A DNA stretch of 64,000 bases from Prostheceraeus crozeri (lineage: Eukaryota > Platyhelminthes > Polycladida > Euryleptidae), in contig CAJQUW010000458.1 of NCBI GenBank assembly GCA_907163375.1, positions 1-64,000 of the forward strand, given 5' to 3'. The position numbers were made by a program, and so were the translations under genes. The notes under the pieces were generated by a model that was not told where the DNA came from, did no database searches, and saw only the letters and a program-made list of their open reading frames with translations. Each line of letters begins with the position of its first letter. Position 1 is the first letter of the stretch. Shown piece after piece: positions 2,301-46,080 of this stretch.

Positions 2301-3665
2301 TTGTGCGCTCAGTCTTTCGAGACACGTTTTGAACTATCTTCGCACAGACTTCAACATACACACGCGAACGATACCTACACCAACGGTACCTCCTCTATCC
2401 GACTCACTGAAGTGTCCATAAATAATTTAGTGAGGAACTACCAGATGGACTCCTCAGAAACCATTGCTAACTTTGAGGAATGGTTTCATCAAAAATCATC
2501 ATTGATAGAAGCGCTCTTCAACAATTTAGACAATTTTAGGATGAAGGCGCTCATCTATCTTAAAATAAAATATGTAAAAATCGACCACCATACTGGACAA
2601 ATAATAGAGAGGTTGGAGTTTCACATACCCTCCTCTCCTGCAACCGAAGTTGTAGACTGTGAGTCTTGGATAAATTTTCATATCCAAGGGTTAAAATTAA
2701 ATATAGATAAATTTAACGAGCGTGATAGTGGACTCGTTTTTGATGGTATTGAGACCGCCATGATTAAAATCAGTTTATTAGGAAATCATAGTGGTCGAGG
2801 CTCCTTTAAACTTCCGAAAAATTTAAGAAATAAAGCAGCAGTCATTTCTGTAGATTGCGAATCGCAATGTTTTAAGTATGCCGTCCTCTCCATTCTCCAC
2901 TATAATGATGTGCAGAATAGTCGATACCGCAAGAGTAAGTATCAACAGTGGGAGAATGAATTAAACTTCGATGACTGTAATAGTGACGATATGAAAATTA
3001 AAGATATAGAAAAATTTGAAAAATTGAACAACATCAAAATAGTTCTCCATGTTTGGGAAAAAGGATTGAAGGGTGTGCGCTACAACTCGCGTTCGAGTTG
3101 TTATGAACGTACAGTAAACCTGTTATTAGTAAAACAGGATGATAGTGAGGAATGGCACTACTGCGGTATTCCCAAAATCTCTCGCTTATACCACCACTTA
3201 GAAAACTCTAGTAGAGAGTTATATTACTGCGACAGATGTATTCGCCACTTTAGGAGGAAAACTAAATTTGAAACTCATTACGAATGGTGTAAGCGAGGTA
3301 AACTGCAAATGGAGCGCATGCCCAAAGATAAGGAGTTTTCATATAGAGAGAATGGTGATGAATTAAGTCCTCTTCGTGTCATCTATGCTGACATCGAATG
3401 TTATATCGATGATAACATCCATCGACCAGCAGCCATTTCCTGCTATGAAGTATGGCATGATCACTTTAGGGGTAGGCAAAATAAAATGCGCGTCTGGCAA
3501 GGTGAGGATTGTATTTACCAATTCCTACAATTCCTCGAACAGGCTGTAAAATTTCAACAAAAACATGATGGTGAACTCTATCGCAGATCATTGCATATGA
3601 CAGCAGATGATCAAGCAAAATTTGATAGTTGCAACATTTGCCACAAATGTAGGAAAAACATTTGA
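2301..3665 (+). CDS. Polymerase B segment 1: zinc finger, N-terminal domain, exonuclease motif I
   Basis: The open frame is 454 codons and continues upstream in frame, so its first codon (TTG) is not a real start. It opens with a C2H2-type finger whose first Cys lies just upstream of 2301. The Polinton polymerase N-terminal domain follows, then a Cys/His knuckle near 3225-3290 (CDRC ... H ... C), then exonuclease motif I, YADIECYID, at about 3384. It ends in the first half of a Cys-based endonuclease-VII-like knuckle (CNICHKC), where the reading frame is lost. Confidence 0.85.
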   Translation: MCAQSFETRFELSSHRLQHTHANDTYTNGTSSIRLTEVSINNLVRNYQMDSSETIANFEEWFHQKSSLIEALFNNLDNFRMKALIYLKIKYVKIDHHTGQIIERLEFHIPSSPATEVVDCESWINFHIQGLKLNIDKFNERDSGLVFDGIETAMIKISLLGNHSGRGSFKLPKNLRNKAAVISVDCESQCFKYAVLSILHYNDVQNSRYRKSKYQQWENELNFDDCNSDDMKIKDIEKFEKLNNIKIVLHVWEKGLKGVRYNSRSSCYERTVNLLLVKQDDSEEWHYCGIPKISRLYHHLENSSRELYYCDRCIRHFRRKTKFETHYEWCKRGKLQMERMPKDKEFSYRENGDELSPLRVIYADIECYIDDNIHRPAAISCYEVWHDHFRGRQNKMRVWQGEDCIYQFLQFLEQAVKFQQKHDGELYRRSLHMTADDQAKFDSCNICHKCRKNI

Positions 3666-4698
3666 CGATGATAAGATTAAGAAAGTGCGCGACCATGATC
3701 ACATCACTGCTAAATTTAGAAACGCACTCTGTTCAAAATGCAATTTTTCACTTAGGATGAAACGGCGTACATTACCCGTCATTTTCCATAATTTCAAGGG
3801 CTACGACAGCCATATGATAATAAAAGGAGGTTTAGGTCAAATGAAAGAGTGGAAGCTTGATGTAATAGCGCAAACGAGAGAGAAGTTTATGGCCATGACA
3901 GCAAAAGTGCCTGTCGATAAAACTAAAGAAAATAAGACGGTCTATTTTGATATAAAATTTTTAGATTCCTACCAATTTATGACTGCTTCACTGGCCTCTC
4001 TCGTGCAAAATCTAAAGTCTCTTCCACTAACACAAAATCTTAAGAAACAATACCCAAATCTAACCGATGAAGTCATCACACGGAAAGGAGTCTTTCCATA
4101 TGCATATTTTGATGCGATTAGTAAACTCGGCGAGACTTCTCTTCCGCCCATAGATAAATTTAAAAATGATTTGACCGGCGCAGAATGTAAGACCGAAGAT
4201 TATGATCATGCACAAGATGCATGGATAAAATTTGACTGCCATACATTTGGCGAATATATGATTGCCTACCTTAAGTTAGATGTATTTTTGCTGGCTGATG
4301 TATTTCAGGAGTTTCGACGAGTGGCATTAGAAGAAGATAAGTTAGATCCCGTCCACTTTGTCAGTCTGCCAGCCATGTCATTTAAGTCTGCTTTTAAAAT
4401 GACTGGTGAGACCATTCATCTCTTACAAGATCCAGAGATGTATAATTTATTTGAGCGAGGAATTCGCGGTGGTCTCACATTTGTAAATAAACATAGGTTA
4501 AAATCTGAAACAGTAGGCAATGACCAGACTCATCTGAAGTATTATGACCAAAATAATTTGTATGGTAGTTCATTATCCAAACCGCTACCTCACTCTGAGT
4601 TTAGCTGGTTAGATGATAGTGATATTCAACATTTCTCCAACCCTTCTAACATACTAGCAATTCCAGATGAAGGTGATTGGGGATATATTTTGAGATAG
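3607..4698 (+). CDS. Polymerase B segment 2: HNH-like knuckle, exonuclease II and III, motif A
   Basis: This 363-codon frame overlaps segment 1 by 59 nt in another frame. It continues the knuckle with KVRDHDHITAKFR and CSKC, a signature typical of Polinton polymerases. Exonuclease II (HNFKGYDSH) and III (YLKLD) follow, then the polymerase motif A region DQNNLYGSSLS. It ends at TGA 4696-4698 beside GGGG and TTTT runs. Confidence 0.85.
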   Translation: MIKQNLIVATFATNVGKTFDDDKIKKVRDHDHITAKFRNALCSKCNFSLRMKRRTLPVIFHNFKGYDSHMIIKGGLGQMKEWKLDVIAQTREKFMAMTAKVPVDKTKENKTVYFDIKFLDSYQFMTASLASLVQNLKSLPLTQNLKKQYPNLTDEVITRKGVFPYAYFDAISKLGETSLPPIDKFKNDLTGAECKTEDYDHAQDAWIKFDCHTFGEYMIAYLKLDVFLLADVFQEFRRVALEEDKLDPVHFVSLPAMSFKSAFKMTGETIHLLQDPEMYNLFERGIRGGLTFVNKHRLKSETVGNDQTHLKYYDQNNLYGSSLSKPLPHSEFSWLDDSDIQHFSNPSNILAIPDEGDWGYILR

Positions 4699-5645
4699 AT
4701 CTAATCTATCCAAATAATATTAAACATAAAACCGTAGATTTTCCACTCGCACCCGAATCAGGTGAAGTGAGTAAAGATATGTTTTCCGACTTTATGAAAC
4801 AATTTCATAAAGATTTAGAATCATGTGGACAACCCGACTATAAGCCTTGTCGCAAACTTTTACTCACCCAGTATGATAAAGAAAACTATCTAGTCCACTT
4901 TAGCATCTTAAAATTTTATTTAGAAATGGGTATGATTTTAAAAAGAGTTCACCGCATTATTAAATTTAGACAGAAAGCCTTCCTCAAGCCATATATTGAT
5001 AGCAACAGCCAGAAACGTGCACTAGCCCAAAATAACTTTGAAAAAGATTTTTATAAATATAAGAACAACAGTCTATTTGGTAAGACGATGGAGGATGTTA
5101 GAAAGCGCGTAAACTACAAACTAGTTAATGATGATCAAAAGTATCACAAATTGACCTCATCACCTCTATTCATCGATAGAGACATTATCGATGAGGACCT
5201 TATAGGTGTTAAAATGATAAAATCTGAAGTTGAGTTGTGCAAACCCATCTATATTGGTCAAGCTGTACTAGATTATTCTAAGCTTGAAATGTACCAACTC
5301 TTTTATAAAATACTAAAACCATGTCCTCTCGTAAAAGAGGTTCGTTTGTTGGGTGGTGATACAGATAGTTTCTTCTTAGGTATTACCACTCAAAAAGATT
5401 TAAATTTCAATGAAGTAGGAAAATCTTTGGAAAGATATTTTGATACATCAAATTATCCTGCTGATCATCCACTCTACTCCATCAAAAATAAGGCAAAACT
5501 TGGCTGCTTTAAGGATGAGACAGCAGGGAAGGAAATAGATGAAATGATTCTCCTCCGTCCAAAAATGTATTCTATGAAATTAAAGGATAGTGATGATAGC
5601 ATTAAGCGCGCTAAAGGCATATCAAAATCCATTGTGCAAATATGA
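4677..5645 (+). CDS. Polymerase B segment 3: motifs B and C
   Basis: This 322-codon frame takes over from segment 2 with a 22-nt overlap. It contains motif B (KYKNNSLFGKTMED) and motif C (GGDTDSFF), including both catalytic Asp residues of DTD. The region between them is the palm and fingers. It ends near 5645 at the last frame change. Confidence 0.85.
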   Translation: MGIYFEIDLIYPNNIKHKTVDFPLAPESGEVSKDMFSDFMKQFHKDLESCGQPDYKPCRKLLLTQYDKENYLVHFSILKFYLEMGMILKRVHRIIKFRQKAFLKPYIDSNSQKRALAQNNFEKDFYKYKNNSLFGKTMEDVRKRVNYKLVNDDQKYHKLTSSPLFIDRDIIDEDLIGVKMIKSEVELCKPIYIGQAVLDYSKLEMYQLFYKILKPCPLVKEVRLLGGDTDSFFLGITTQKDLNFNEVGKSLERYFDTSNYPADHPLYSIKNKAKLGCFKDETAGKEIDEMILLRPKMYSMKLKDSDDSIKRAKGISKSIVQI

Positions 5646-9157: not shown

Positions 9158-9192
9158 TTTTATATTGCTAATCTGCAACTTTGCATAACATC
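9158..9192. promoter_or_regulatory. 35-bp divergent intergenic gap
   Basis: The start codons of the leftward virion-protein gene (9157) and the rightward PC4-like gene (9193) are only 35 bp apart. The gap is AT-rich and includes TTTTTATATTGC, which reads as ATATAAAAA on the minus strand. Either the core promoters lie inside the opposing coding regions or these genes are translated from longer transcripts. Confidence 0.4.
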
Positions 9193-9549
9193 ATGAAGAC
9201 TTGGATTTTGGACTCTCTACAATATATCAGAGTTGATCGTGATGGAAACGTACATTTCAAAAATTCTCATGGTCATACATCAAGAGGAATTACATTAACA
9301 TGGCGACAATTTGTCAACCTCAATGATATCATGAGGGATTTGGAATATTTTGAAACATTAAGATTCATCTCCTTGGGTGATCAAGTTTGGCTTCAACATT
9401 ACAGAAATGAAATTCAAATCTACCATTCTCATTCCGCAAACTGTTTCTCATTTCGCAAATACAATTGGGAGAAGTATAGAAGATACATACATCGCTCCAT
9501 CATGACATTTATTCGTCGTGAGTTCATCGCCCTACTATGCAAATCTTAA
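9193..9549 (+). CDS. PC4-like protein, paralogue 1
   Basis: The gene encodes 118 residues from ATG 9193, the first ATG of a frame that opens at a TTG. It appears to hold two beta-beta-beta-alpha repeats: the first spans residues 7-53 and ends GITLTWRQFVNLNDIM, the second spans about 58-105 and ends FSFRKYNWEKYRRYI. The first repeat resembles the single-stranded-DNA-binding core of transcription coactivator PC4 (p15), where a short beta-hairpin is followed by a GISL..EQW..L helix. The match is by eye and moderate. It is a tandem duplicate of the next gene (shared LDSLQ, WEKY and HRSI). The position directly upstream of a TBP-like gene fits a transcription role, but this is inferred. Confidence 0.55.
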   Translation: MKTWILDSLQYIRVDRDGNVHFKNSHGHTSRGITLTWRQFVNLNDIMRDLEYFETLRFISLGDQVWLQHYRNEIQIYHSHSANCFSFRKYNWEKYRRYIHRSIMTFIRREFIALLCKS

Positions 9550-9571: not shown

Positions 9572-10222
9572 ATGAGTTGGAAATTAGATTCCCTACAACG
9601 TATTGAAACGGATCATGATCGAAACGTCTATTTCAAAGATTCAACTGGAAATGTGAGAAGAGAGTTTGCTTTATCTTATCGTCATTTTCAATCTCTACAT
9701 CATATCATGAAGGACTTGAAATACTTCTATATGAAAAGACATTCACGTATTGGAAATCGCATCTGGCTGCGCGTCAACAATCGGCGAATTCAACTCTATC
9801 ATTCCCAACTTCATACTAACTTCACATTTCATCAAGGTAGTTGGGAAAAGTATAAAAGGAAGGTACATCGCTCAATTTACTCATTCTTTCATCATGAAGC
9901 GCCATCGCTACACCATCGTCAACATTCTCCGTCGCTTCAGACTCTACACCAAAATCGATCTCACAACATTACGCCAACAGCTTCCAAACAGCAAGTATTA
10001 CCCGGGCCGTCCTCAAATGTTAGTGGTGAAGATGAACAATTCACGGAATCTTCAACTCTTCCCAAATGGGACTGTACAGATTCTCGGCGCCCTTTCTCAT
10101 TCATCGGCGCAGTCAATGCGCTTAGAGCTACAAAGACTACTACGTCGGATATGGAAGAGGGAGAGGTGTGTGATGTCGAATCTGACTGTGGACAATATGG
10201 TGATCTCTACTCAATTGAGTGA
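9572..10222 (+). CDS. PC4-like protein, paralogue 2, with a long C-terminal tail
   Basis: The gene encodes 216 residues from ATG 9572. Residues 1-110 repeat the two-repeat PC4-like domain of paralogue 1 (WKLDSLQRIETDHDRNVYFK, WEKYKRKVHRSI). The remainder is a low-complexity tail rich in Ser, His and Gln that ends in an acidic stretch (DMEEGEVCDVESDC). The tail overlaps the TBP-like gene in another frame for 329 bp, so it is either a real overprinted region or an untranslated extension. In Polinton 2 the counterpart frame shows similarity in the part before the overlap. An acidic tail would suit a coactivator, which is speculation. Confidence 0.55.
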   Translation: MSWKLDSLQRIETDHDRNVYFKDSTGNVRREFALSYRHFQSLHHIMKDLKYFYMKRHSRIGNRIWLRVNNRRIQLYHSQLHTNFTFHQGSWEKYKRKVHRSIYSFFHHEAPSLHHRQHSPSLQTLHQNRSHNITPTASKQQVLPGPSSNVSGEDEQFTESSTLPKWDCTDSRRPFSFIGAVNALRATKTTTSDMEEGEVCDVESDCGQYGDLYSIE

Positions 10223-10439
10223 CAGTCTATCATTTTTGAAGATTCGTACCAGCAGTTACAGTTTGTGTTATGAACCCGAACTTTTTCCTGCAGCTCTCAT
10301 TAGTTGTTGGTTGCCTGTGCATGTGGCAATCTTTCATAATAGTAAAGTGATCATTACTGGACTAAAATCTCATGAACAAGCAAATATGATCCTAGACTAT
10401 CTCATTGAGTATGTACGTACCCAGCGGATTGTAAAATAA
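9894..10439 (+). CDS. TBP-like protein (TATA-binding-protein fold)
   Basis: The gene encodes 181 residues from ATG 9894, very close to the size of the TBP core. Two direct repeats can be seen. Repeat 1 (residues 6-85) has TIVN, KIDLTTL, YYPGRPQMLVVKM, LFPNGTVQILGA. Repeat 2 (about 97-181) has DNMVIS, YEPELFPAALI, VAIFHNSKVIITGLKS. These follow the order and spacing of the eukaryotic TBP repeats, where YEPELFP, a phosphate-binding IF.SGK strand and TGAK occur at the same places. It should therefore bind promoter DNA as a saddle, perhaps to direct host RNA polymerase II to element promoters. TBP-like proteins are known in large DNA viruses. A degenerate second copy occurs in Polinton 2. The first part overlaps the PC4-like paralogue 2. 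The stop codon lies inside AATAAA (10435-10440). Confidence 0.8.
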   Translation: MKRHRYTIVNILRRFRLYTKIDLTTLRQQLPNSKYYPGRPQMLVVKMNNSRNLQLFPNGTVQILGALSHSSAQSMRLELQRLLRRIWKRERCVMSNLTVDNMVISTQLSDSLSFLKIRTSSYSLCYEPELFPAALISCWLPVHVAIFHNSKVIITGLKSHEQANMILDYLIEYVRTQRIVK

Positions 10440-10471
10440 AAAACAATTTTTTCCAACATGATGTTTTTATT
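10435..10471. terminator. Back-to-back poly(A) signals overlapping two stop codons
   Basis: AATAAA on the plus strand (10435-10440) contains the TBP-like stop, and AATAAA on the minus strand (10466-10471) contains the protease stop. The two convergent genes are only 27 bp apart, so this short segment appears to end both transcripts. Confidence 0.55.
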
Positions 10472-10928
10472 TCAAATCATGATAGAACTTACAAATCATT
10501 TTTTCATTAGAGGATGGATTACATGAAAAGTTTTGAATAATAGATGCAAATCGAGATACATGTAAACGTTTTAAGATGAAGTACAGTACAAAAGCACCAC
10601 ACGTTGATGAAAGTGGATGTTGTAGTATGCGTTCATTTCGCTGATATTGACGCGTATGTTTTCTCAACCACTGCTGTGTTGGTATATTTGGAGGTTGAGC
10701 AAGAGAGTCAAATAGTTCACCACGTCGGTCTTCTCCAATAAAGATCGCTTTCCAATGCTCACCGCCTAAATTCTGTGAATGAGTGTTTAGCACAATAAAG
10801 ATGGGATAGTGATTTACTGCAGGTGGTAAGGTATCGAGTGAATAGACATTATCGAAAGCTTTCAACGTCGCTTCGTCTGCATTACGCTGCACTTTAGTCT
10901 TAATATCGTCAGCAGTCAACCAACTCAT
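10467..10928 (-). CDS. Adenain-like cysteine protease (maturation protease)
   Basis: The gene encodes 153 residues from ATG 10928. The catalytic arrangement of the adenovirus/Ulp1-type protease is visible: His58 in GGEHWKAIF, Asp74 in GELFDS, Gln103 in the oxyanion-hole position, and Cys110 in LSSTCGAFV. In Polintons and adenoviruses this enzyme cleaves virion precursor proteins after assembly. Its start overlaps the stop of the capsid gene (TAATG), so it is the last cistron of the leftward cluster. It seems intact. Confidence 0.9.
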   Translation of the reverse strand: MSWLTADDIKTKVQRNADEATLKAFDNVYSLDTLPPAVNHYPIFIVLNTHSQNLGGEHWKAIFIGEDRRGELFDSLAQPPNIPTQQWLRKHTRQYQRNERILQHPLSSTCGAFVLYFILKRLHVSRFASIIQNFSCNPSSNEKMICKFYHDLK

Positions 10929-12205
10929 TAACGATTATACTGAAGAATCACGTCACGATACTTTGTAATTTCAATATTTGAATCGAAGACTGCATAAATT
11001 AATACATTGATCGTCTCAGGTAGTGTTCTTTTGAACGTCAAATCCAAACGAATATTATGAGGCACGTTCGCTTGACGATAGGGTGCACTAATATCGCTGT
11101 CAGCAGTTAAATCAAATGCATAAATAGTATATCCACTCTTAAACTCTTTCATAGTCAGTCCGTTGGTGTCATCCGTATTGTAAAAGCCAAAAACATCCAT
11201 AAAATCAACATAACTGCGCATAAATTGATCTGAAGCAAAATCTGGTTTGTAGGGTGGACCAGGATGACTCACACCATTTACACGTAAAGCAATTTCACTT
11301 AACTGATTGTGTTTAAAATTGAAAGGATTCTTCTTTATATTACCATTAAATGCATCATTTTCAACCATTGCCACCATGAGGAGCTTCGGTGCTTCCGATG
11401 GAAAGAGGCCATCTTTCATGAAACTCTTTTGATCTTTCGGAATTGTAAAGGTGAGAAGCTTTGTATGCTGAATGGGGTAAATGGCATTTTGGCGGTTAAG
11501 GCCTTCAGCATGCCCTCTAATGACACTTGGATTCGGTACTACTCGACGAATGTAAAGTGCAATATCTTCCACATGAATTCTAAAATTGTCAACTTTAGCA
11601 AATGCATTCAGCGCAAATTCAGGCTTATTCAATGTCAGCTTGAGTCGCATGCTGGTATTACACAGTAAAAACTTTGACTGTCTAAAGAAGTCTAAATTCA
11701 GCGGACCATATAGCTGACATACTCTACTATCTTTAATCATAGCAGATCGCTTTACAAAGCCACTGTTTGTTTCAACATCAAATTTTCCTGCTTCATCTCT
11801 GTACCATCCCATGGCTTCCATATGACTTTTTTGTGCTGCTGGATGAAACTGTGATACATGATTGAAATATGATTTATAGGGATAATCGCTTTGACCACCT
11901 TCCACTTGCTGCTCTCCAATCGTTAGAGAAACATCACGAAGTAATGTAGTCAATGGTAAATTGTTCAGTCCAACTTTATGTGCATCGTCAATAGCAGTTC
12001 CATCTGCTTGCTGAATTCTAAACCTCAAATCAAGCATCGCATAACTCAAATCTATGTAGTCATCACTACCACCAGGAATAACAAATTCAATGGGGCCAGC
12101 ATTCTCAGCTGTTCGAGGATGATAATCTACAATACTTGAACTAAGAATATCTGTCTGTATGGCTTGTTGATCGAACAAACAAAAACCGGAAGTTTTACAC
12201 TCCAT
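10928..12205 (-). CDS. Major capsid protein (Polinton, double jelly-roll type)
   Basis: The intact gene encodes 425 residues from ATG 12205. The N-terminal region (SSSIVDYHPRTAENAGPI, then DDYIDLSYAMLDLRFRI) matches the conserved opening of the Polinton capsid family that also includes the nematode F54H12.2-type proteins. The length is enough for a double jelly-roll. In the Polinton model this protein forms the hexagonal capsomers of an icosahedral particle. It is flanked by the protease and a basic core-like protein and sits 2 bp from the latter. I cannot exclude that it is the vertex protein instead, but the size and conservation favour the major capsid protein. Confidence 0.7.
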   Translation of the reverse strand: MECKTSGFCLFDQQAIQTDILSSSIVDYHPRTAENAGPIEFVIPGGSDDYIDLSYAMLDLRFRIQQADGTAIDDAHKVGLNNLPLTTLLRDVSLTIGEQQVEGGQSDYPYKSYFNHVSQFHPAAQKSHMEAMGWYRDEAGKFDVETNSGFVKRSAMIKDSRVCQLYGPLNLDFFRQSKFLLCNTSMRLKLTLNKPEFALNAFAKVDNFRIHVEDIALYIRRVVPNPSVIRGHAEGLNRQNAIYPIQHTKLLTFTIPKDQKSFMKDGLFPSEAPKLLMVAMVENDAFNGNIKKNPFNFKHNQLSEIALRVNGVSHPGPPYKPDFASDQFMRSYVDFMDVFGFYNTDDTNGLTMKEFKSGYTIYAFDLTADSDISAPYRQANVPHNIRLDLTFKRTLPETINVLIYAVFDSNIEITKYRDVILQYNR

Positions 12206-12704: not shown

Positions 12705-13925
12705 TCACTGTCGATCACTTAGATGAAAGATGTCGGCACGACGCATCCAAGAGTTCATACTTGAAGGATAACCAGCCCATTTAACAAGACACCATTCTTC
12801 ACCTTGCCGTTTTTTACATCGAATGATTTTCTCTACCCAATATGTTTCACTTTCAGTGACTACCTCAATCTCATCGCGGTAAAAGCTACCCTCAATTTCT
12901 TCATTATCGTAATCTTTCAACTTGTAGGTGGTCGGAGAGTCTTTTTGATTAATCCTTGATACTGTAAATACCTCCTCTGTCCAATTCGGAAGGTACCCTT
13001 TAGCAAAAACACTTTTCACTTTTGAGATACGAACTTTATCGCCAATTTTCACATCACTTTTCACATGAGTGCGTTTACGTTGGAATGATTCGCGCACTTT
13101 ATCTACATTGTCAGCATTTACATCTACTGGTCTGAGTCCAATAGAACGATGGATAGAGTGATTGTAGGCATGGAGTGTATCTTGTAGAACCTTTGTCCAA
13201 TTTTGTGTCAAGTTGGCAGTAAAATGTCGCCACAAGCGATTTTTTAATGTGCGATTAAAACGTTCAACGAGTGCAGCTTTATAAGCGCTCTTTACACTAA
13301 ACAACTCAATGTCATGCCTCTCAAATAATCTTGTCACATGCTGATTTTCAAACTCTTTTCCTTGATCACTCTGAATTCTTTTTGGAATGCGACCTTCTCG
13401 AAAAATTGTTTGGAATGCTTTTGCTACTCCTTTCCCTTCTTTAGTTTTTAAAGGTTGAGCCCACGCATAACGCGAGAAAATATCAATGACGGTTAAAATA
13501 AAATTATTGCCCGAGTTATGTTTTGAAATGGAGGCAACATCGCACAAATCTGCTTGCCACTGTTCATCGATGTCATGAACAATATAATGGCGGGTGCGGT
13601 ACTTCTTTTTCGCTTGTTTGTGGAGTGTATAGGTAGCCTGACCCTTTAACCATCGTTTCACTTGTGATTGTGGAAGACCACTCGCTTTTGATAATTTCTT
13701 GATAGATGCAAATCCTGCCGGATGTTTTACATCATAATAGATTGACTTCAAACGTTCAGTCGATGACGGCTGACTCTTTTTCCTCCTTCTCATCTTTTTT
13801 CTTTCTTGCCTTTCTACATTTACAACAACTGCAGCATTTAGCTTTAGCGGTTTTGCGATCGTGTTCACATTGCTTAGGGGTTTCATTATGAGAGCTGGCG
13901 CAGCAAGTGCAAGTGACAACGACAT
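12705..13925 (-). CDS. Retroviral-type integrase with C-terminal chromodomain
   Basis: The gene encodes 406 residues from ATG 13925. The catalytic core has Asp in WQADLCDV, Asp in IQSDQGKEF and Glu in YKAALVERFNR, with about 35 residues between the last two (DDE). An N-terminal Lys/Arg stretch and a helix-turn-helix-like LSKASGLPQSQVKRWL segment precede it. An SH3-like part (KIGDKVRIS) and a chromodomain (YWVEKIIRCKKRQGEEWCLV, WAGYPSSMNSW) complete it. The enzyme inserts the element into host DNA and makes the 6-bp duplication. The first 170 bp overlap the Cys-rich gene in another frame, so translation may start at a later Met. Confidence 0.9.
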   Translation of the reverse strand: MSLSLALAAPALIMKPLSNVNTIAKPLKLNAAVVVNVERQERKKMRRRKKSQPSSTERLKSIYYDVKHPAGFASIKKLSKASGLPQSQVKRWLKGQATYTLHKQAKKKYRTRHYIVHDIDEQWQADLCDVASISKHNSGNNFILTVIDIFSRYAWAQPLKTKEGKGVAKAFQTIFREGRIPKRIQSDQGKEFENQHVTRLFERHDIELFSVKSAYKAALVERFNRTLKNRLWRHFTANLTQNWTKVLQDTLHAYNHSIHRSIGLRPVDVNADNVDKVRESFQRKRTHVKSDVKIGDKVRISKVKSVFAKGYLPNWTEEVFTVSRINQKDSPTTYKLKDYDNEEIEGSFYRDEIEVVTESETYWVEKIIRCKKRQGEEWCLVKWAGYPSSMNSWMRRADIFHLSDRQ

Positions 13926-13972: not shown

Positions 13973-14665
13973 TTAATAGTCTGAGAACATGTATTTCCTA
14001 GGAGGAGCTGTTTTACGTTTTCCTTTTACCAGTTTTAGTGGCGATGTAGATCTACGTCGAGTTCTTCCTCTTGTTTGCTTAGTGAGTGTGGGAGGGGATG
14101 TAGCAGGTGACGTCTTAAACCAATTTGTTGGCATTTTCATCGCCTGAAGCATTGGAGTAGTAGCCACTGTTGAATCAAGTTCTTTCAATGTCTCATTATT
14201 TAAAGCAAATTTTGGCACATTATGCTTTTTCAATAGTTTAAGAAAGTATGACCAACCAGGTGGAACATAGCCCTGACGGCGCTTTCTACGTGTCGCATAC
14301 TGAATCAAGTCTTCATAACGTGAAGCATCAATCACTTTATTTTCATCTGTAATGATTTCTCCTCTATCATTTACATTGAGATGGGGCTCAATACTATTGA
14401 AAAGAGATATGGCATGTGCGCGAGATGCTAAAGGTGTAGCAGTCGATACAGAGTCACGCATCTTATTCTTCAAGTTTTTCAATTGCTCAACAGTTTCCGA
14501 TTGTAATAATACAGCACGATGTGGATCTTTGATGTGAACATTTTGCTGATAATCTATTTCTTTTCTATACATTTGATTTGCAAGAGGTTGCTTTACTTGC
14601 TGCATGGCAGTCAATTGTACATATTCATCCTGAGGAATAACAATCATGCGAGAATAAGAACTCAT
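13973..14665 (-). CDS. Polinton protein of unknown function between ATPase and integrase
   Basis: The gene encodes 230 residues from ATG 14665 and overlaps the ATPase stop by 4 bp (ATGA). It is hydrophilic, begins with a Gln-rich helix (QDEYVQLTAMQQVKQ), has a central ARRKRRQGYVPPGWSYF-like segment (actual motif TRRKRRQGYVPPGWSYF), and ends in a strongly basic, Ser/Thr/Pro-rich tail. The conserved location suggests a virion or packaging accessory protein comparable to the PW/PC-type proteins of other Polintons. I do not recognise a domain. Confidence 0.55.
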   Translation of the reverse strand: MSSYSRMIVIPQDEYVQLTAMQQVKQPLANQMYRKEIDYQQNVHIKDPHRAVLLQSETVEQLKNLKNKMRDSVSTATPLASRAHAISLFNSIEPHLNVNDRGEIITDENKVIDASRYEDLIQYATRRKRRQGYVPPGWSYFLKLLKKHNVPKFALNNETLKELDSTVATTPMLQAMKMPTNWFKTSPATSPPTLTKQTRGRTRRRSTSPLKLVKGKRKTAPPRKYMFSDY

Positions 14666-15279
14666 AGTTTGTAGATAATCATGGGAGTTTTCAAAATATC
14701 ACTTCGAAATCTAAATTCTTCCGGACACTCTTGCGTAAAGTCAATGAATAAGTAACCGTATGGTTTTTCAGTAGCTGCTTGAAAAATTTCAATTAAGGCT
14801 TTTGATCCTCTGGGTGCAACTTGTCGCGCTAAAATTTCAAATTGACTTTTATCTCGCGGATTCTTGAAAATAGCATAATAGTGTGTATTCAGGTTTCGTG
14901 TACGAGCTTCTTTTCCATCAGGAAACAAATTTTGTGTAATATAGATGATAAAACACCTTTTATGGTGTGCTGCGCGAGTGAACATATCTGTAACATCTTT
15001 TGAATTCTTACTTTCTTTTAATAAATCATCCAATACAACAACATCATTAGACTGAAGTTTATCCACTGGAATAATTCCTTCATGTCGAATAAAGTTGCGA
15101 CTTTGCAATTCCTGAAACAGCGACGGTTGATAAATACCATAACACCAAATCACTCGATTGATAGGTTCCTTAAACAACTCCCTTCTTTTATCCAATAAAT
15201 TCAGCGTGAAAACAGTTTTACCTGCATGAGATGGACCTGATACAGTCAGAACTTTATCACATTGAAGTCTGAAATCCAT
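14662..15279 (-). CDS. FtsK/HerA-type genome-packaging ATPase
   Basis: The gene encodes 205 residues from ATG 15279; the frame is open to 15327 but only through a TTG and overlaps the preceding gene. Walker A is GPSHAGKTVF near the N-terminus, Walker B is VVVLDDLL near residue 80, and YITQN supplies the sensor position. This is the A32-like packaging ATPase of Polintons, adenovirus-like and other double jelly-roll viruses, which drives DNA into the capsid. The length is normal for the family and no break is visible. Confidence 0.9.
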   Translation of the reverse strand: MDFRLQCDKVLTVSGPSHAGKTVFTLNLLDKRRELFKEPINRVIWCYGIYQPSLFQELQSRNFIRHEGIIPVDKLQSNDVVVLDDLLKESKNSKDVTDMFTRAAHHKRCFIIYITQNLFPDGKEARTRNLNTHYYAIFKNPRDKSQFEILARQVAPRGSKALIEIFQAATEKPYGYLFIDFTQECPEEFRFRSDILKTPMIIYKL

Positions 15280-15310
15280 TTTATTACTTTGAGACTCAAC
15301 ATTTGCATAA

Positions 15311-15652
15311 TTAACGCTTAGAGCCAAAGATATTTCCCAATAGGTTGCCCACGGCAGGAGCTATCATTGGAAGTATTGCTGAAAGGAAACCGCCCTTTTG
15401 TGTTAGAGTTTTCCTCTTTCTTTGAAGGGCGACTTTAGGATTGGAGATGAAACGCAATTTCGTAGCATATCGCTTAAGTAACTTTCGTTGTTTTGGTGCT
15501 AATTTCTTCGTCCTCAACTTCCTCACATGAGAAATAATTTCACAAATGAATTTATCGTTAGCATGTCGTATAGCATTGTATCGCTGATTTGCTTTCATTC
15601 GTCGGAGAGCTTGAATGGCTGAAGAAAACTTTTGACTTTTACGTTTCGTCAT
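15311..15652 (-). CDS. Basic virion protein with GG site and hydrophobic C-terminal peptide
   Basis: The gene encodes 113 residues from ATG 15652. Residues 1-85 are Lys/Arg-rich helices. The end is TQKGGFLSAILPMIAPAVG plus a short LLGNIF tail. A double-Gly site followed by an amphipathic, membrane-active-looking peptide is typical for small Polinton virion proteins located next to the ATPase, and it parallels adenovirus proteins released by adenain. The end overlaps the ATPase upstream region. Function is inferred from composition and position. Confidence 0.65.
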   Translation of the reverse strand: MTKRKSQKFSSAIQALRRMKANQRYNAIRHANDKFICEIISHVRKLRTKKLAPKQRKLLKRYATKLRFISNPKVALQRKRKTLTQKGGFLSAILPMIAPAVGNLLGNIFGSKR

Positions 15653-18192: not shown

Positions 18193-19204
18193 ACAATAAC
18201 ATCAAGCTGATTCCAAATCTGGTCTCTGTTTTTCAATCCGATGCTTCGTTTTGAAGCTAGAGCCCAAAACGTCCCAAATTCTAACTCTGTCGTTTTTCGC
18301 CAATGTCCCAAAATCTTAAATGGCGTCTCACATCTAAACGAAGACAGATAGGAACAAGCCGATTGTTTCACTGAATTTGTCTCACTCTTAGCTTTCAAAC
18401 GAGCTATCGCACGACAAAATCCGTCCACTGGAAGCCAAAATCGAAGCAAGCTGTCCAGAGGGGGGGGACGTCAGCCGAAAATTTTTTCTCTCCGATTTCG
18501 CTGGAAACATCCTTCCTAACCCAAAATTTCACGTAGATTCCGAATCTGGCCTCCGTTTTCTCATCCGATGCTTCGTTTGGGCGCTACACACCAAAACATC
18601 CCAAATTCTAACTCTGTCGTTTTTTCGAAAAATGTTGAAAATTTTTTCTCTCCGATTGACTTGAAACTCACTATACAGATAAAGAATTTCACGCTGATTC
18701 CAAATCTGAAATCCGTTTTCCAATCCGATGCTTCGTTTTGAAGCTACAGCCCAAAACGTCCCAAATTCTAACTCTGTCGTTTTTCACCAATGTCCCAAAA
18801 TCTTAAATGGCGTCTCACATCTAAACGAAGACAGATAGGAACAAGCCGATTCTTTCACTGAATTTGTCTCACTCTTAGCTTTCAAACGAGCTATCGCACG
18901 ACAAAATCCGTCCACTAGAAGCCAAAATCGAAGCAAGCTGTCCAGGGGGGGGGGACGTCAGCCGAAAATTTTTTCTCTCCGATTTCGCTGGAAACATCCT
19001 TCCTAACCCAAAATTTCACGTAGATTCCGAATCTGGCCTCCGTTTTCTCATCCGATGCTTCGTTTGGGCGCTACACACCAAAACGTCCCAAATTCTAACT
19101 CTGTTAAAATTTTGAAGAAAAATTTTTTCTCGCCAATTGCCTTGAAACTCACCCTACCGATGCAGAATTTTACGCTGAATCCGAATCTGGCAGCCATTTC
19201 ACCA

Positions 19205-19302
19205 TCCACGACAACCTAGACGGTCGCCCACGTCAACCTAGACGGTCGCCCACGTCAACCTAGGCGGTCGGCCACGTCAACCTAGGCGGTCGGTCACGTC
19301 AA
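19205..19302. repeat. Minisatellite of about 22 bp, four to five units
   Basis: CAACCTAGACGGTCGCCCA is repeated head to tail, with later copies changing to CAACCTAGGCGGTCGG. It lies within the terminal region of Polinton 1. Confidence 0.85.
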
Positions 19303-19332
19303 CCCATACGAGACCAACACATCCGAGTCTCA

Positions 19333-19495
19333 CACTCTGTCGTTCCAGAGGGGGGGGGGAGTCAGCGAACATGTTGTGAACCCACCTGGCCGGCACACCA
19401 CGACAGACTCTGTCGTTCCAGAGGGGGGGGGGGACTCAGACCCGAAGCACCACGGCGGCCGACCACGACACTCTGCCGTTCCAGAGGGGGGGGGC
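19333..19495. repeat. Three G-run repeats
   Basis: CTCTGTCGTTCCAGAGG followed by 8-11 G occurs at about 19336, 19408 and 19470 with different intervening bases. Similar TCCAGAGG plus G-run motifs occur at 18454 and 18940 and, as TGGAGG plus a long G-run, in the Polinton 2 repeat. Confidence 0.7.
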
Positions 19496-19527
19496 GCCGG
19501 TCGAGTGTTTGTCACTTGCTTACTACT

Positions 19528-39273: not shown

Positions 39274-40762
39274 AGTAGTGATCCCATTGTAAAATCAAGT
39301 GCAAAATGTGAAATGATGAGTCATCCCCCCTCTAGAAGGAAGTGGCCAAGGATGTGCTGGAAGGGATGGGTCCGAGCGGAGGAAACTGTTCCCTCCCCCC
39401 TCTGGAAGGAAGGAAGGAAGGATGAGCTCTCCTGTGAGGCAAGGGTAGGAAAGTGTTTTACCTTTAGAAAAGTTTAGTTTAAAAAAGTTAGTGTTAAAAG
39501 TTTTTTAGTTTCGGATTCTACGTGAAATTTTGGGTTAGGTAGGTTGTTTCCAGCTCCATCGGAAGAAAAAGTGCTGACCCCCCCCCACGGCAGGGTTTCT
39601 TCCAACTTTGGTTCTAGAGATGGTAGAAAGTCGTGTGATAGCGCGTTTGAAAGCTAAGAGTGAGATGAATTCAGTGGAAGAAACGGCTTGTCTCTACGTT
39701 CTTTTGTTGAGGTATGGGAGTGACTTTAAGATTTTAGGAATCTCCGAAAAATGACAGAGTTTGAAAGTGGAGGTTTTGGATGTTTTGGGATGAGAAAGGT
39801 CCTATTCAGACTTCCAACTTTGGTTCTAGAGATGGTAGAAAGTCGTGCGATAGCGCGTTTGAAAGCTAAGAGTGAGAAAATGCAGTGGAAAGCATCATAT
39901 GTCCAAATTTTCCTGGGTTTTGAGTGGAAAATGACTTGAAAATGGCAGGAATCTCCGAAAAACGACAGAGTTAGAAAAAGGTGGGTTTTGGGGTGAGAAA
40001 GGTCGTATTTCGGCCAGAAGGAGGGCTCGGATGGACAAACGGAGGTCAGATTCGGACTCTACGTGAAATTTTGGGTTAGGGAGGTGATTTCCAGCGGAAT
40101 CGGAGAGAAAAAGTTCTGACCCCCCCTTCCAGTCAGACTTCATCATTTGGTTCTAGAGATGGTAGAAAGTCGTGTGACTTGAAAATGGTAGGAATCTCCG
40201 AAAAACGACAAGAGTTAGAAGGTGGATGTTTTGGAATGAGAAAGGTCGTATTTCGGGGTGAAGGAGTGTCTGGATGGACAAACGGAGGGCAGATTCGGAC
40301 TCTACGTACAATGTTACATGAGTAGGGTGATTTTCAAGTCAATCGGAGAGAAAAGTGCTAACCTTCACACTGGGTCTCAACACATAGGATTTTTTCGTGA
40401 AAATGTTAAATTGTGGCCTACTTTGATGACGACTCTCTCAGGAATGGAAGTGAATGAAGAGCTCGGGTTTCTTTTAGGGGAAAGACCGCACTTTGTTCTC
40501 TAGGATCCTACCTTTTCAGATGTGTGGAAGGTTTCGTTTCCATATGAGAGCTTGTTTAAAATCGAATTTTTGCGCATTTTTCCATGAGGTTGGATAGTTT
40601 GAAAAAACGAGTTTTTTCAACTCGGCTTCTGGTAATCGTAGAGAGTCGAGGGATGGCTTAAATGAAAGGTGATAGCGAGAAAACGTGACTGTCAAAATTT
40701 GAAGTCAATCGGAGCACTAGAACCGGAGATAGAAGTGTTTAAAGTTTTGGATGATTGAGATC
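39274..40762. repeat. Polinton 2 left terminal inverted repeat
   Basis: This 1.49-kb arm is an inverted copy of 51928-53304, with the inner boundary at TTGGATGATTGAGATC. Length differs from the other arm by about 110 bp because of internal indels. It contains internal repeats around CTTAGCTTTCAAACGCGC, CCAACTTTGGTTCTAGAGATGG-type blocks and C-runs. The polymerase reading frame begins right at its inner edge. Confidence 0.9.
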
Positions 40763-41410
40763 CACCCAACCAACTCCCAGCATCGCCACCACCTGCAGCA
40801 GCAGCGAACGACCTCCCTCTCCTCTCCGTCGAGTCCGTGGAGACTCTTGGAGCAGGAGTTGGAGATAGTCGGAGAGGAGAGGGAGATTGATGTCGAAGAG
40901 GAGAAGGAGGACTATCGATGCCAGCGTGAGAGGCTCGTTCCTGACTATGAGATGGAAAGCTCTGAACCTACAGAGGATATTCATCCATTCCTGCCAAATA
41001 ATATAGGTTTAATTCATCAAATGTTGGCGAGTTTAGATAGGTTTTTGCTCAAAGGCATGTCTTATGTCTCTTCTCGTTTCAATAAAATAGACAGCAGTAC
41101 GGGAGAAGTAGAGTCCACTGTGACCATTAGGATAGCCTCCTGTGCTGCTGATCTGATAGGTGATGTGAACGAGTGGATAGAGAGACATGCGACCGATCTC
41201 GTCAGCAACTTAAATAAATTTAATGAAAGAGACAGAGGTTTGGTTTTTGATGGGATAGAGAAAGTAGACATTAAAATCAATCTCTTAGAAAATTTGCGAG
41301 GGAGTGGTTGTTTCACCCTCCCCAAAGCACTGGCTGACAAAAAGGCTGTCATCAATGTAGATTGTCAGTCCCAGTGTTTCAAGTATGCCGTCCTCTCCAT
41401 TCTTCAGTGA
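40751..41410 (+). CDS. Polinton 2 polymerase fragment 1 (N-terminal domain)
   Basis: Opens with a Gln/His/Ser-rich leader and an acidic, Glu-rich stretch, then the conserved N-terminal domain (LNKFNERDRGLVFDGIEKVD and VDCQSQCFKYAVLSIL). The leader has no counterpart of the zinc fingers of copy 1. It ends at a stop at 41408-41410. Confidence 0.75.
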   Translation: MIEIHPTNSQHRHHLQQQRTTSLSSPSSPWRLLEQELEIVGEEREIDVEEEKEDYRCQRERLVPDYEMESSEPTEDIHPFLPNNIGLIHQMLASLDRFLLKGMSYVSSRFNKIDSSTGEVESTVTIRIASCAADLIGDVNEWIERHATDLVSNLNKFNERDRGLVFDGIEKVDIKINLLENLRGSGCFTLPKALADKKAVINVDCQSQCFKYAVLSILQ

Positions 41411-42035
41411 TGATGATATAAGTATGCATCGTCAAAGAGTCACTCACTATCGTGAATGGGAGGACGAACTTAAGTTTGATGGGCTAGATGTCAACACATT
41501 AGATTGTAAGGACATCACCCAATTTGAAAAATTTAATAAAATTAAGATAGTCGTCCATCTCTGGGAAAAAGGTCTGAAGGGCGTTAGGTATAACAACCGC
41601 CAAAGTACCTACGACCGGATTGTCAATCTTCTAGTGTTTGGCGACAACCACCCAGAATGGCATTATTGTGGCATTCCTAAAATCTCAAAGTTGTATCGCC
41701 ACCAACAAAGTTATGATGAACAACAGTATTACTGTGATCGCTGCACACGACGTTTCACATCCAAACCATTTTTTGAACAGCATTACGAGTGGTGCTCTCG
41801 GGGTAAGCTTCAAATGGAAGTGATGCCCAAAGATAAATTTTATAGGTATGAAGAAAAAGGCAATGAGCTGAGTCCCATTTGTGTCATTTATGCAGACATT
41901 GAATGCCATATTGATAGTGAAGATCAGACTGACCAACCTGCAGCCATTGCCTGTTATGAAGTTTGGCATTCTTACTATAGGAACCAAAATAAACTGCATG
42001 TGTGCCAAGGTGAAGACTGCATCTTAGAATTTTAA
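41385..42035 (+). CDS. Polinton 2 polymerase fragment 2 (exonuclease I)
   Basis: Continues in another frame with WEKGLKGVRYNNRQSTYDRI, a Cys/His knuckle (YYCDRCTRRF ... HYEWC) and YADIECHID, which is exonuclease motif I. It stops at a TAA at 42033-42035 in a spot where copy 1 is open. Confidence 0.75.
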   Translation: MPSSPFFSDDDISMHRQRVTHYREWEDELKFDGLDVNTLDCKDITQFEKFNKIKIVVHLWEKGLKGVRYNNRQSTYDRIVNLLVFGDNHPEWHYCGIPKISKLYRHQQSYDEQQYYCDRCTRRFTSKPFFEQHYEWCSRGKLQMEVMPKDKFYRYEEKGNELSPICVIYADIECHIDSEDQTDQPAAIACYEVWHSYYRNQNKLHVCQGEDCILEF

Positions 42036-42097
42036 AATGTTTAGATAAAAAAGCCCGTTTTCATCAACGCTATGAAACGGAGCTCACTAGGAAACCC

Positions 42098-42511
42098 ATG
42101 TGTTTCACAGAAGTCGATAAATTAAAATTTGATAGGACCACAGAATGTCCCCGCTGCTGCTCATCCTTTGATGAGGAGCAGCATAAGAAAGTGAGGGACC
42201 ATTGCCATCTCAGTGGCAAATTTAGGACTGCCTTGTGCAGTAAATGTAATTTCTCACTTAGGCTCAAACGGCTAACGCTCCCCGTCATCTTTCATAACTT
42301 TAAATGTTATGATGCGCATATTCTTCTTCGCCATGGTCTAGGACATATGAAGTCATGGTCGATGAACGTCATAGCGCAAAGTAAGGAAAAATTCATGTCT
42401 CTGTCGGCCAAAGTCCATGTTGACATGACGAAGGAGGGGAAGCCTGTCTTTTATGACGTTAAGTTTATGGACAGTTTCCAGTTTGTCTTCTTCCTTAGCC
42501 ACTTTGGCTAA
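42098..42511 (+). CDS. Polinton 2 polymerase fragment 3 (knuckle, exonuclease II)
   Basis: Encodes the CPRCCSSF and KVRDHCHLSGKFR knuckle, CSKCNFSLR, and HNFKCYDAH of exonuclease motif II. It breaks just before the hAT insertion at 42569. Confidence 0.75.
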   Translation: MCFTEVDKLKFDRTTECPRCCSSFDEEQHKKVRDHCHLSGKFRTALCSKCNFSLRLKRLTLPVIFHNFKCYDAHILLRHGLGHMKSWSMNVIAQSKEKFMSLSAKVHVDMTKEGKPVFYDVKFMDSFQFVFFLSHFG

Positions 42512-42568
42512 TAATTTAGACTCACTTCCTCTCACTCAAAATTTGAAGAAAGACTATCCTACTAGTAG

Positions 42569-45211
42569 CAGAGTTGGAAAAGTCGGAATTGGAATTGACG
42601 ATACTTAAATCTACTGGAATTGGAATTGACCTTGATAAAACTCAATTCTACTTTTTCGATAGACCTGTTATAAATCTATTTGTACAAAAATTGAAATCAC
42701 AGTATTCGGCCGTTGTGTTAACTGCACGCAGAGATAAGAGAGAGAGAGATAGATCGACAGAGCTAGTTTAATTCTATTGTTGAATAAAGGGTGCTAATTG
42801 TGACTTTGATGGGCCTACAGCCACCAGACAATGTTAATTCAGCAATTAAGCAAACAATGAAAAGGTAATCATATTTGTTCAATCTGTGATTTATTTATTT
42901 ATCATGTAAGATAATTAATCAAAATAAAACAATTGTTGAATTTAGTTATTGATTGGATGAGCACAAAAATCGGAGATTGACTTAATTGTTGCACACACAA
43001 AAAACAATTGGTTTGGAAAGAGGAAAATTAACGCTGCATTAAAGGGCAGCAACCCTGTCAATTCAGATCACAATATAGACAGTGTCAAATTATTCTAATA
43101 ATTAATGATTCAATTAAAATGGCAATGACATGAAATATTATTCAACCTCCAATCACAACAATTGACAATATTAATTTCCAAGACTATAGTTATACAAATA
43201 CGATACTCAACGATATAAGAAAAACTTTAAACTTGCAGTTCACTTCTTAATGTTGAATTCACTTCAATTCGATCGGACTCACTTAGACCAAAATAATATC
43301 ATAAATATCAGTGTCACTTATACCGTCAATCTTCAATCGCGCTCGCTGATGTGTTGCCGCATACGCTACTGTGTTGTTGTTCGCTGGTAGGCAGTTGTAG
43401 TTGATACTTCTGTAGTTAAGTTACACCGCGAGATCCCGGAGTTCTTCTTTCAGCTACTGAAGATGTCGTATGTGTTGTTGTTGTTTCAATTTCTCATCGT
43501 CTCTAATTTATGCAAATTTTTGACACTTGACGATAAATCCACTTTCTTTTGAAAATTGAAAGAGTTTCCTTTAATCTCTGCTCGTTAGCTTTCGACCCGA
43601 CCACATTTCGTTCTTATCACGGAATTTTTAATCTCCCTTTTTTAACATGGACCATTAATCAGTTTTCATGATATCATTTTTATCGTTTTTTCTTTCATCA
43701 ACAATCACGTTATCGCACATTGAATTTCTTTCTTCTGTTAGTTTATTAATAGATTATTCGCATCCCCCTCTCTCTCTCTCTCATAGAAGTAGATAATGAG
43801 AATGGAAGTTTGATATCTTGCCTATGTACAATGATGGCACATGGAAAAATCTATGGTTTGTAGATCAGATTCGATCTAAAACATCACATCATAGTCAAAC
43901 TATTTGCCAAGTTGGTTGTGGAAGTTGTTGACAGCAAATTAATGCAGGATTTTTATGAAGATAATATCAAGTGAGATGGTGGCATTGTTTCATGTGGCAT
44001 AGCCTACTATTCCCTGGGTTGGTATATTGTGTCGATTTGCAGAAGCCATTAACAACTATTTTTCAAAATTCGAATTAAAAATTGGTCCACAAAGTCATAA
44101 TTGAAAGTGGGCGGTGCACTGGTTGTAAGAATATCTCAAGAATTCAATAGAAAAAATCTAATTATAGGATGATTTTTCAATCTCCTTAAGAAACCTAGCG
44201 CTTTTGTCGAATAAACACATTGAAAGCTTCTTCACCGACAATCATTTCTCAGATAAGTGAATAATCGCTGGAACTTTTCAATTAATCATTAAATGACACA
44301 TGTGATAGAGAGTGATGATATTTTGTAAGCTGATCTTCGAAAGCATGTAAAGATTTTGAAAATTGTTCAAATATAGTGAACAGGGCAGCCCTTTAAAGTA
44401 AAATGAATACTCTGAGATTTCTTGACCTCTGATTTCAAGCTGGAGCAATGTATGTCCTGTAAATCGACATTGCAAGTTGCATATGTGACTGATAATACTC
44501 TTGATAGATTATAGGAGCGATATTTCAAAAATGATGAACGTACAGAACGTTTTAAAGGATTTCTTTCCCTGTCATCCTGTCGCCGCAGTATTTTGTAAAT
44601 TCACTATTGCTTTTGTGTACATGATCTTTGGACAAGGGGCAGCAATCCAGATCACAATTTGGCTTGATAAATATAAATACAAATAAGAAAACATGGAAAC
44701 CAGCTCGCACAATTTGCGTTTTGCCCCAACTTAGTTCCCCCGGCGTGTGCCATAATTTTCATGCGATTTCCATTCTAGGACTTTCTATGGTACTGTTAAT
44801 TTCTATGGTCTCTCTCTCTCAGTGTTTGATTCCTTGCTGACCGTTAATTTTCTTTTCTCTTTTTCACAAGATGTTGAATATCTCGTTTACGAAACGAAAA
44901 TGGCGCAGGCTGACCGACTACATATATACATGTACACAAGAAATATGAACTATGAACATGAGAACGCACATAGGAACGACGCAGGGAACGGCACACAGGA
45001 ATAAAGAGGATAGGATACGGGCACATGGGTTAGATTGAAGTGAGGAAACTTTCGATACATTAACATATACGCGTCATGCAATTATCGGAATTCGGAATTG
45101 AATCTCATTATGGAATTGGAATTGAATTGAACTGTGTCGATTGGAATTGGAATTGAAATTTCTGCTCTGGAATTGGAATTAAAAAATTTCAGTGGAATTT
45201 TTCCAGCTCTG
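42569..45211. mobile_element. Nonautonomous hAT-type transposon, 2643 bp, inside the polymerase
   Basis: The left end CAGAGTTGGAAAAGTCGG and the inverted right end CAGAGCTGGAAAAATTCC form imperfect terminal repeats of the CAGAG type, and an 8-bp duplication flanks it (ACTAGTAG at 42561-42568, ACTATTAG at 45212-45219, one mismatch). Joining the flanks restores the order of polymerase sequence seen in copy 1, which confirms the insertion. The interior is AT-rich with no transposase frame. A 91-bp relative lies at 54840. Confidence 0.85.
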
Positions 45212-45433
45212 ACTATTAGTGACAGTCTCATGCGACGGAAAGGGGTGTTTCCTTATAGTTATTTTAGTTCAATGGACACATTGAAAGAAACATCCCTTCC
45301 GTCCATTGATAAATTTAAGAACGATTTGACGGGTGAGGACTGTTCGTCTGATGACTATAGGCATGCACAGCAGGCATGGCAAGAATTAGGTTGTCACTCG
45401 TTTAGTGACTATATGCTTGCCTACTTAAAATGA
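45199..45433 (+). CDS. Polinton 2 polymerase fragment 4 (linker to exonuclease III)
   Basis: The polymerase similarity starts just after the hAT right end (RRKGVFPYSYF) and reaches SDYMLAYLK, the first half of exonuclease III, before a TGA. In copy 1 the same motif reads through. Confidence 0.7.
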
Positions 45434-45528
45434 GATGTTTTGCTCTTAGCCGATGTCTTTGAGGCTTTTAGGAAAGTTACACTGGAGCAGGACGTGTTGG
45501 ACCCCGTCCATTACGTTAGTTTACCGGG

Positions 45529-46029
45529 TTGTCCAACAAGTCAGCTTTTAAAATGACTAGGGAAAAAATACATTTATTAGACGATCCCGAAATGTACACC
45601 ATGTTTGAACGCGGTATCCGAGGTGGACTGACGTTTGTCAACAAGCATGTTGTCAATGGAACAGTCGATGGTGAATTTGACACTCACCTGATGTACATCG
45701 ACCAAAATAATTTATATGGAAGTGCACTGTCGAAACCTTTGCCACAATCCCACTTTGCTTGGCTTGAACCCCATGAGGTTGAACACTTTTCCAACCCCCA
45801 GCACATTTTAGGACTGGAAGATGAGGCCGACATAGGTTATTTGTTTGAAGTCGACCTCACCTATCCACACTGTATTAAGAATAAGACATCAGACTTTCCT
45901 CTTGCTCTGGAGTCTGGTATAGTGACTGAAGATATGTATTCTCCCTTCATGGAGCAACTAAAATCTAAGTATGACGGAGAAAATAAAATGAAATATAATC
46001 CTGCTAGAAAGCTACTGCTCACCCAGTAG
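45529..46029 (+). CDS. Polinton 2 polymerase fragment 5 (motif A)
   Basis: Contains FERGIRGGLTFVNKH and DQNNLYGSALSKPLPQ, the motif A region. It ends in a TAG at 46027-46029 at the place where copy 1 has a Tyr in the TQYDKE stretch. Confidence 0.75.
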   Translation: MSNKSAFKMTREKIHLLDDPEMYTMFERGIRGGLTFVNKHVVNGTVDGEFDTHLMYIDQNNLYGSALSKPLPQSHFAWLEPHEVEHFSNPQHILGLEDEADIGYLFEVDLTYPHCIKNKTSDFPLALESGIVTEDMYSPFMEQLKSKYDGENKMKYNPARKLLLTQ

Positions 46030-46080
46030 GATAAAGAACATCACATTGTTCATTACAAGATTCTCAAATTCTATTTAAGG

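Follow-up and report, generated by a model that had tools for sequence, protein, structure and literature searches.

The gene at 9894..10439 of the analysed DNA (64,000 nucleotides of contig CAJQUW010000458.1 of the flatworm Prostheceraeus crozeri, hereafter the window) encodes a protein whose membership in the TATA-binding protein (TBP) family, and whose place within a Polinton, are both supported by our analysis. TBP marks gene starts and is regarded as a component of gene expression that is universal and does not vary; to our knowledge, its only occurrences beyond cells are in very large DNA viruses. Here it lies in a mobile element of roughly 20 kb, with thousands of insertions and three diverged families, and half of its DNA surface is changed alike throughout. 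This rebuilt half of the DNA-gripping surface suggests that the element can pick its own promoters.

The TBP gene of a Polinton

The TBP frame runs from an ATG at 9894 to a stop codon at 10437‒10439 (181 aa) and stays open upstream of this ATG as far as a TTG at 9750. An earlier note on this DNA had read the product as a TBP-like protein with both repeats and quoted four motifs from it; all four are present in the translation, and Pfam PF00352 matched in two stretches (E = 7.6e-21, 74.2 bits, cut-off 22.9). Sequence matches to solved TBPs reached E values down to 2.8e-14, and down to 1e-24 with a profile of 44 sequences. In the fold check, which had been set beforehand as the refutation test, the predicted structure was the TBP saddle, and the best matches were TBPs, with no unrelated fold. 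Thousands of probe matches in the assembly and 60 homologues in other data bear out the further claim that the gene is no peculiarity of a single element, and the diverged copy reported from a second Polinton is real (48048..48518, minus strand; Pfam TBP E = 5.3e-15). In searches of viral_contigs with the TBP alignment, a pPolB piece, the capsid candidate and yeast TBP, no locus was found by any query. Frames were intact in 150 of 150 and 148 of 150 copies in the genome searches, counts that cover the best-scoring copies only, are biased to intact ones and are not taken as evidence of selection. Since three of the four intercalating Phe residues are kept and the F99 position is Pro, the element TBP is a diverged TBP rather than a canonical one.

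The identification of the element as a Polinton also stands, because of the genes around TBP: a DNA_pol_B_2 polymerase, an rve integrase with a chromodomain, a protease, a putative ATPase and a putative capsid gene. The features of the element are as follows.

2301..5645, plus strand: protein-primed DNA polymerase B region (pPolB), here in three overlapping ORFs; DNA_pol_B_2 E = 4.8e-16 on 3607‒4695
9181..9549, plus strand: tandem paralogue of the Pur-like gene, 122 aa, without the tail
9572..10222, plus strand: predicted Pur-alpha/Whirly/PC4-fold (Pur-like) protein, 216 aa, of which the C-terminal ~109 codons are shared with the TBP gene, read in a different frame
9851..9859, plus strand: TATAAAAGG, within the Pur-like coding sequence, a candidate TATA box for TBP
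9894..10439, plus strand: TBP gene with both TBP repeats
10467..10928, minus strand: adenovirus/Ulp1-type protease, convergent with TBP; Peptidase_C48 0.0013 and Peptidase_C5 0.044, both below cut-off
10928..12205, minus strand: putative major capsid protein, named from position, size and resemblance; 54% identity in family 3
12705..13925, minus strand: RVE integrase with chromodomain; rve 1.2e-10, Chromo 3.1e-6
14662..15327, minus strand: putative packaging ATPase; Pox_A32 E = 0.022, below cut-off; 58‒75% identical pieces in family 3
18306..19527, no strand: right end of the element, inner part of the terminal inverted repeat; common end ...CACTTGCTTACTACT

The protease homologue of family 3 matched C48 above the cut-off (E = 7.7e-5), and the best PDB match of the protease was the S273R protease (0.013). 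The putative ATPase and capsid genes are named mainly from position; the capsid candidate, a putative major capsid protein, had no match in Pfam or PDB, double jelly-roll proteins included. The right end is the exact point, after CACTTGCTTACTACT near 19527, at which three copies (the window copy and two others) diverge. On copy C1845, the left flank repeats the inner right-end sequence (which begins at about 18306) in inverted orientation, at 97% over about 480 bases; the terminal inverted repeat is seen in this inner part on C1845, the left end of the window copy lying beyond the contig start. The element measures about 20 kb. Tandem repeats of 206 bases occur near its left (window 301‒1218) and of 22 bases near its right end (19206‒19315).

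Elsewhere, the window holds a near-perfect palindrome (21757‒22170; 200-base arms, 99% complementary, with a 14-base spacer), an in-frame tandem repeat (25957‒26443) that forms part of a larger ORF and has several of its frames open on both strands, and a LINE-type reverse transcriptase and endonuclease frame pair (27222‒29790), named by eye from the translation.

Residues of the predicted DNA and TFIIB surfaces

Residues were compared among 45 element TBPs, that is, the 44-sequence set and one of family 3, with yeast TBP numbering and the DNA- and TFIIB-contact roles that we assume for these positions. The TFIIB contacts of the C-terminal stirrup are E186 (44/45), E188 (45/45) and L189 (41/45). 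On the C-terminal DNA surface, N159, V161, F190, P191, F207 and T215 are each present in all 45 sequences, while the DNA contact L205 is replaced by Ala (32), Thr (11) or Ser (2), and the V213 position is Ile in 33 and Met in 10. The N-terminal DNA surface keeps F116 (45/45) and N69 (40/45, the other five being gaps). The first intercalating residue, F99, is Pro in 44 of the 45 proteins, the three other intercalating Phe being kept in every one, and V122 is replaced by Gln (45/45), L114 by Gln (42/45) and T124 by Leu (41/45); Met (28) or His (10) occupies the V71 position. The change of the DNA surface, as judged from these residues, is mostly one-sided, in the N-terminal half, and is itself conserved, which fits a different reading of one half-site and does not fit degeneration. 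Since the N-terminal DNA surface is altered, plain TATA recognition is not to be assumed. DNA binding may be weak, since the protein lacks one of four intercalating Phe as well as several DNA contacts, and has other residues in place of L205.

We favour, with moderate confidence, a Polinton-owned promoter factor of the TBP family that keeps the contact with host TFIIB, has a site preference of its own and directs the host polymerase to the genes of the element. From the computed homology, predicted fold and residue pattern, we infer DNA binding and its specificity, TFIIB binding and use at element promoters. The C-terminal half would act much like a standard TBP half, inserting two Phe into a DNA step and offering the TFIIB-binding stirrup, so that host TFIIB and RNA polymerase II could be brought in. 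The N-terminal half, since its DNA surface is rebuilt, probably picks a site unlike the TATA box in the half that it covers.

The combination of nearly invariant TFIIB contacts and a changed N-terminal DNA surface would also suit a TBP mimic that has lost normal TATA binding and interferes with the host by titrating TFIIB or TBP partners, thereby damping host transcription. We consider this improbable, since a pure titrator would not need F190, P191, F207, N159, V161, T215 and F116, which are invariant, and since the changed N-terminal residues are conserved, as a new specificity predicts and decay does not.

The overlapping Pur-like gene

The predicted fold of the overlapping neighbour is shared with Pur-alpha, Whirly and PC4 proteins, and Pur-alpha ranks first in the fold comparison. 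The Pur-like proteins show no sequence match to these families, whether 23 of them were compared with Pfam or their profile with PDB, and Foldseek gave no match at E ≤ 0.001. PC4, the first guess from sequence, was discarded, having no Pfam PC4 match and being less favoured than Pur-alpha in the fold comparison; a Nudix_hydro match (0.018) was taken as chance. Pur-alpha/Whirly-like folds bind single strands, and the gene product is probably a nucleic-acid-binding protein on the basis of the predicted fold. As a predicted single-strand binder, it probably acts with TBP in promoter opening or replication, a cooperation that we infer. The tandem paralogue is 42% identical to it, has short homologues (P0076‒P0079) and probably starts at the ATG at 9193.

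Five sequences, which represent three families, were shuffled synonymously; for each of them, the Pur-like tail frame stayed open in 0 to 0.87% of the shuffles. Synonymous constraint is not clearly seen in the overlap: pS is slightly lower inside than outside in the three closest pairs (0.24/0.28 for window‒L030, 0.28/0.36 for window‒L026 and 0.23/0.28 for L026‒L030), and distant pairs, which are near saturation, differ in either direction. The open-frame test is thus the one result that argues for a real tail.

The Pur-like and TBP frames are fused into a single open frame in a minority of copies (292 aa in L032), and frames of 286‒293 aa in other copies are candidates for such a fusion, known from their lengths alone. 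A JGI contig of 10,296 bases (P0061) encodes a Pur-like protein that is 99% identical; an environmental sample therefore probably contained the element or its host.

Three element families and their spread

TBPs of family 2, which includes the second window copy, and of family 3 (L024, L025, L028 and L034) are 40‒44% identical to the family-1 TBP. On C12605, the genes around TBP in the family-3 element follow the order of the window element: pPolB, two genes on the minus strand, a single Pur-like gene, TBP, protease and capsid, then a small gene, the integrase, another gene and the ATPase. TBP adjoins the Pur-like gene in all three families, with its residues kept, and Ka/Ks is well below 1 between subfamilies. 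The second element in the window has the following features.

40751..46748, plus strand: pPolB pieces, interrupted here; tblastn 47‒67% to the pPolB of the first element
48048..48518, minus strand: TBP of the second, capsid-less family, a damaged copy, named from the Pfam match and the surrounding genes

This TBP (L009) has an in-frame stop in the first repeat, where the eleven other family-2 copies fetched (L010‒L020) are open. Three family-2 loci (27.8, 19.8 and 19.0 kb) carry pPolB, TBP, the Pur-like gene and homologues of the small genes 16030, 16528 and 17271; when 20 gene pieces from the first element were used as tblastn queries, no protease, capsid, integrase or ATPase was found in them at E ≤ 0.001. 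In the second window copy (region 40751‒49700), the same method found pPolB, TBP, Pur-like and 16030 pieces only. The capsid-less status of family 2 therefore refers to three loci and one damaged copy among 1,312 probe matches. Long inverted repeats lie on both sides of the loci on C13882 and C10994 (96‒98% in the best pieces), and the third locus has a short inverted match of 86 bases. This gene content indicates that the loss of the virion genes leaves TBP and the polymerase together.

Family-2 homologues of the 16030 gene (window 16030‒16440), of which there are two or three per element, match the N-terminal part of pPolB (residues 26‒160, 25%, E about 1e-7), and the gene may be derived from the polymerase, whose N-terminal part lies at window 2301‒3665.

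The retention of pPolB, TBP and the Pur-like protein in a capsid-less family, together with the single-strand binding of Pur-alpha/Whirly-like folds, might instead point to a DNA-bending architectural factor that works with both partners in replication or integration at the terminal repeats. This seems unlikely to us, since the conserved TFIIB stirrup would have no evident use in replication, and we retain the promoter factor as the preferred reading.

Probes were counted over the assembly of 2.05 Gb in 14,165 contigs. The family-1 TBP probe (29 bases, up to 2 mismatches) gave 5,525 matches (backward control, 0), the capsid probe 5,628 (control, 0) and the family-2 probe the 1,312 mentioned above (control, 0). 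The TBP and capsid probes lie 1,792‒1,793 bases apart in four compared copies (C7, C8, C13 and C15) and 1,794 in the window. If all of its copies were complete, family 1 would account for about 5% of the assembly. Nine family-1 copies are 99.2‒100% identical over 3.5 kb, and the spread was therefore recent; because of this near-identity, open frames within family 1 say little. The counts point to thousands of Polinton copies in two families and to an unusually large, recent expansion. A captured passenger gene without function, riding on a very active element, would fit the little weight of open frames within family 1, but this explanation is very improbable, since three families with ~40% identical proteins keep TBP and its residues beside the Pur-like gene, Ka/Ks is low between subfamilies and 60 homologues exist in other data.

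Promoter candidates and a model of expression

TATAAA, mostly as TATAAAAGG, lies 43‒47 bases upstream of the TBP ATG in 18 of 20 distinct copies from the three families, namely 6/8 in family 1 and its subfamilies (L026 and L029 have a changed base), 9/9 in family 2 and 3/3 in family 3; these are 8, 9 and 3 of the fetched copies, in 21 rows of which L025 and L034 are one place. TATAAAAGG is a candidate TATA box, and the TBP gene may be started through it as an ordinary TATA box within the overlapping neighbour gene. It may also merely reflect the codons of the conserved peptide YKR of the neighbour; YKR/YKK is kept in 5 of 13 aligned full-length database homologues and absent from 8.

ATGCAAA is enriched upstream of family-1 starts (5 of 14, where the background for a 60-base window is 0.013) and absent from those of family 3 (0/9) and family 2 (0/7). 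The relaxed form A[AT]GCAA, chosen after inspection and scored on hand-picked starts that include some internal ATGs, precedes 7 of 14 starts in family 1 (six at 29‒46 bases, one at 56) and, at 33‒47 bases upstream, 6 of 9 in family 3. For family 2 the count is 2 of 7, and in the right half of the family-3 element, which had been held out, it is 1 of 6. A[AT]GCAA is only a lead for a promoter motif, with no link to TBP. pPolB and the 17271 gene have a common 3'-splice-site-like TTTCAGGCATC in their 5' regions, and thus both may be expressed from spliced transcripts. These 5' regions (window 1960‒1995 and 17955‒17990) are similar, with TTTCAG|GCATC.

We propose tentatively, and with less than even confidence, that the N-terminally re-tooled TBP and the overlapping single-strand binder form a promoter-recognition module. 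The host would switch on TBP via the TATA box, and TBP would then open a separate class of promoters with host TFIIB and Pol II; the capsid-less derivatives, which keep pPolB, TBP and the binder, would be replicons built on the same core and able to express themselves. Two questions become testable in this element: by what means Polintons express genes that may be silent within the genome of a host, and how the specificity of TBP can change one repeat at a time.

Comparison with cellular and viral TBPs

The element TBP resembles cellular TBP in its two repeats, the saddle fold, the TFIIB stirrup and most of the C-terminal DNA surface. However, element TBPs are about 25% identical to yeast TBP, have Pro at the first intercalating Phe and replacements of V122, L114 and T124, and belong to a mobile element. 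The host has a separate TBP gene of its own, whose exons on C9306 are 79% and 86% identical to yeast. Element TBPs are not recent copies of the host gene. In a tree of 50 rows and 179 columns, with archaeal and eukaryotic TBPs as the only cellular rows and a short TRF2 fragment dropped, all 45 TBPs of the elements group in a single clade (support 0.78), which sits on a long branch next to three eukaryotic TBPs; because of the few cellular rows and the long branch, we draw no origin from it. TRF2/TBPL1, a metazoan TBP-related factor, is likewise a TBP relative thought to use non-TATA promoters. The host TRF2-like exon on C3829 (39% to yeast TBP) differs in having W, H and Y at F116, F190 and F207, whereas the element TBP keeps the three Phe. 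The presence of TRF2 points to a bilaterian host.

No report of a Polinton TBP was found in keyword searches of an open-access library, including passages of PMC10675990, PMC10132985, PMC11071296, PMC11071308, PMC10120064, PMC11464507, PMC12220804 and PMC7805220; subscription papers, supplements or repeat databases may hold an earlier annotation. TATA-binding proteins are described from elements of putative mirusvirus origin in an alga (PMC10675990). A TBP gene cluster is given for 59% of mirusvirus genomes, and the same cluster for 0% of Nucleocytoviricota (PMC10132985). Megavirus chilensis also encodes RNA polymerase subunits, TFIIB and TFIIS (PMC11464507); in 18 of the 20 element gene pieces (frames 6199‒7077 and 7040‒7750 being outside the scan), no Pfam match to RNA polymerase or TFIIB was found. 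Giant-virus TBPs (for example those of Heterosigma akashiwo virus 01 and Terrestrivirus) are also virus-encoded and are structural matches of the element TBP in BFVD, with E down to 2.2e-11. Giant viruses and mirusviruses are very large, whereas the Polinton that bears this TBP is about 20 kb.
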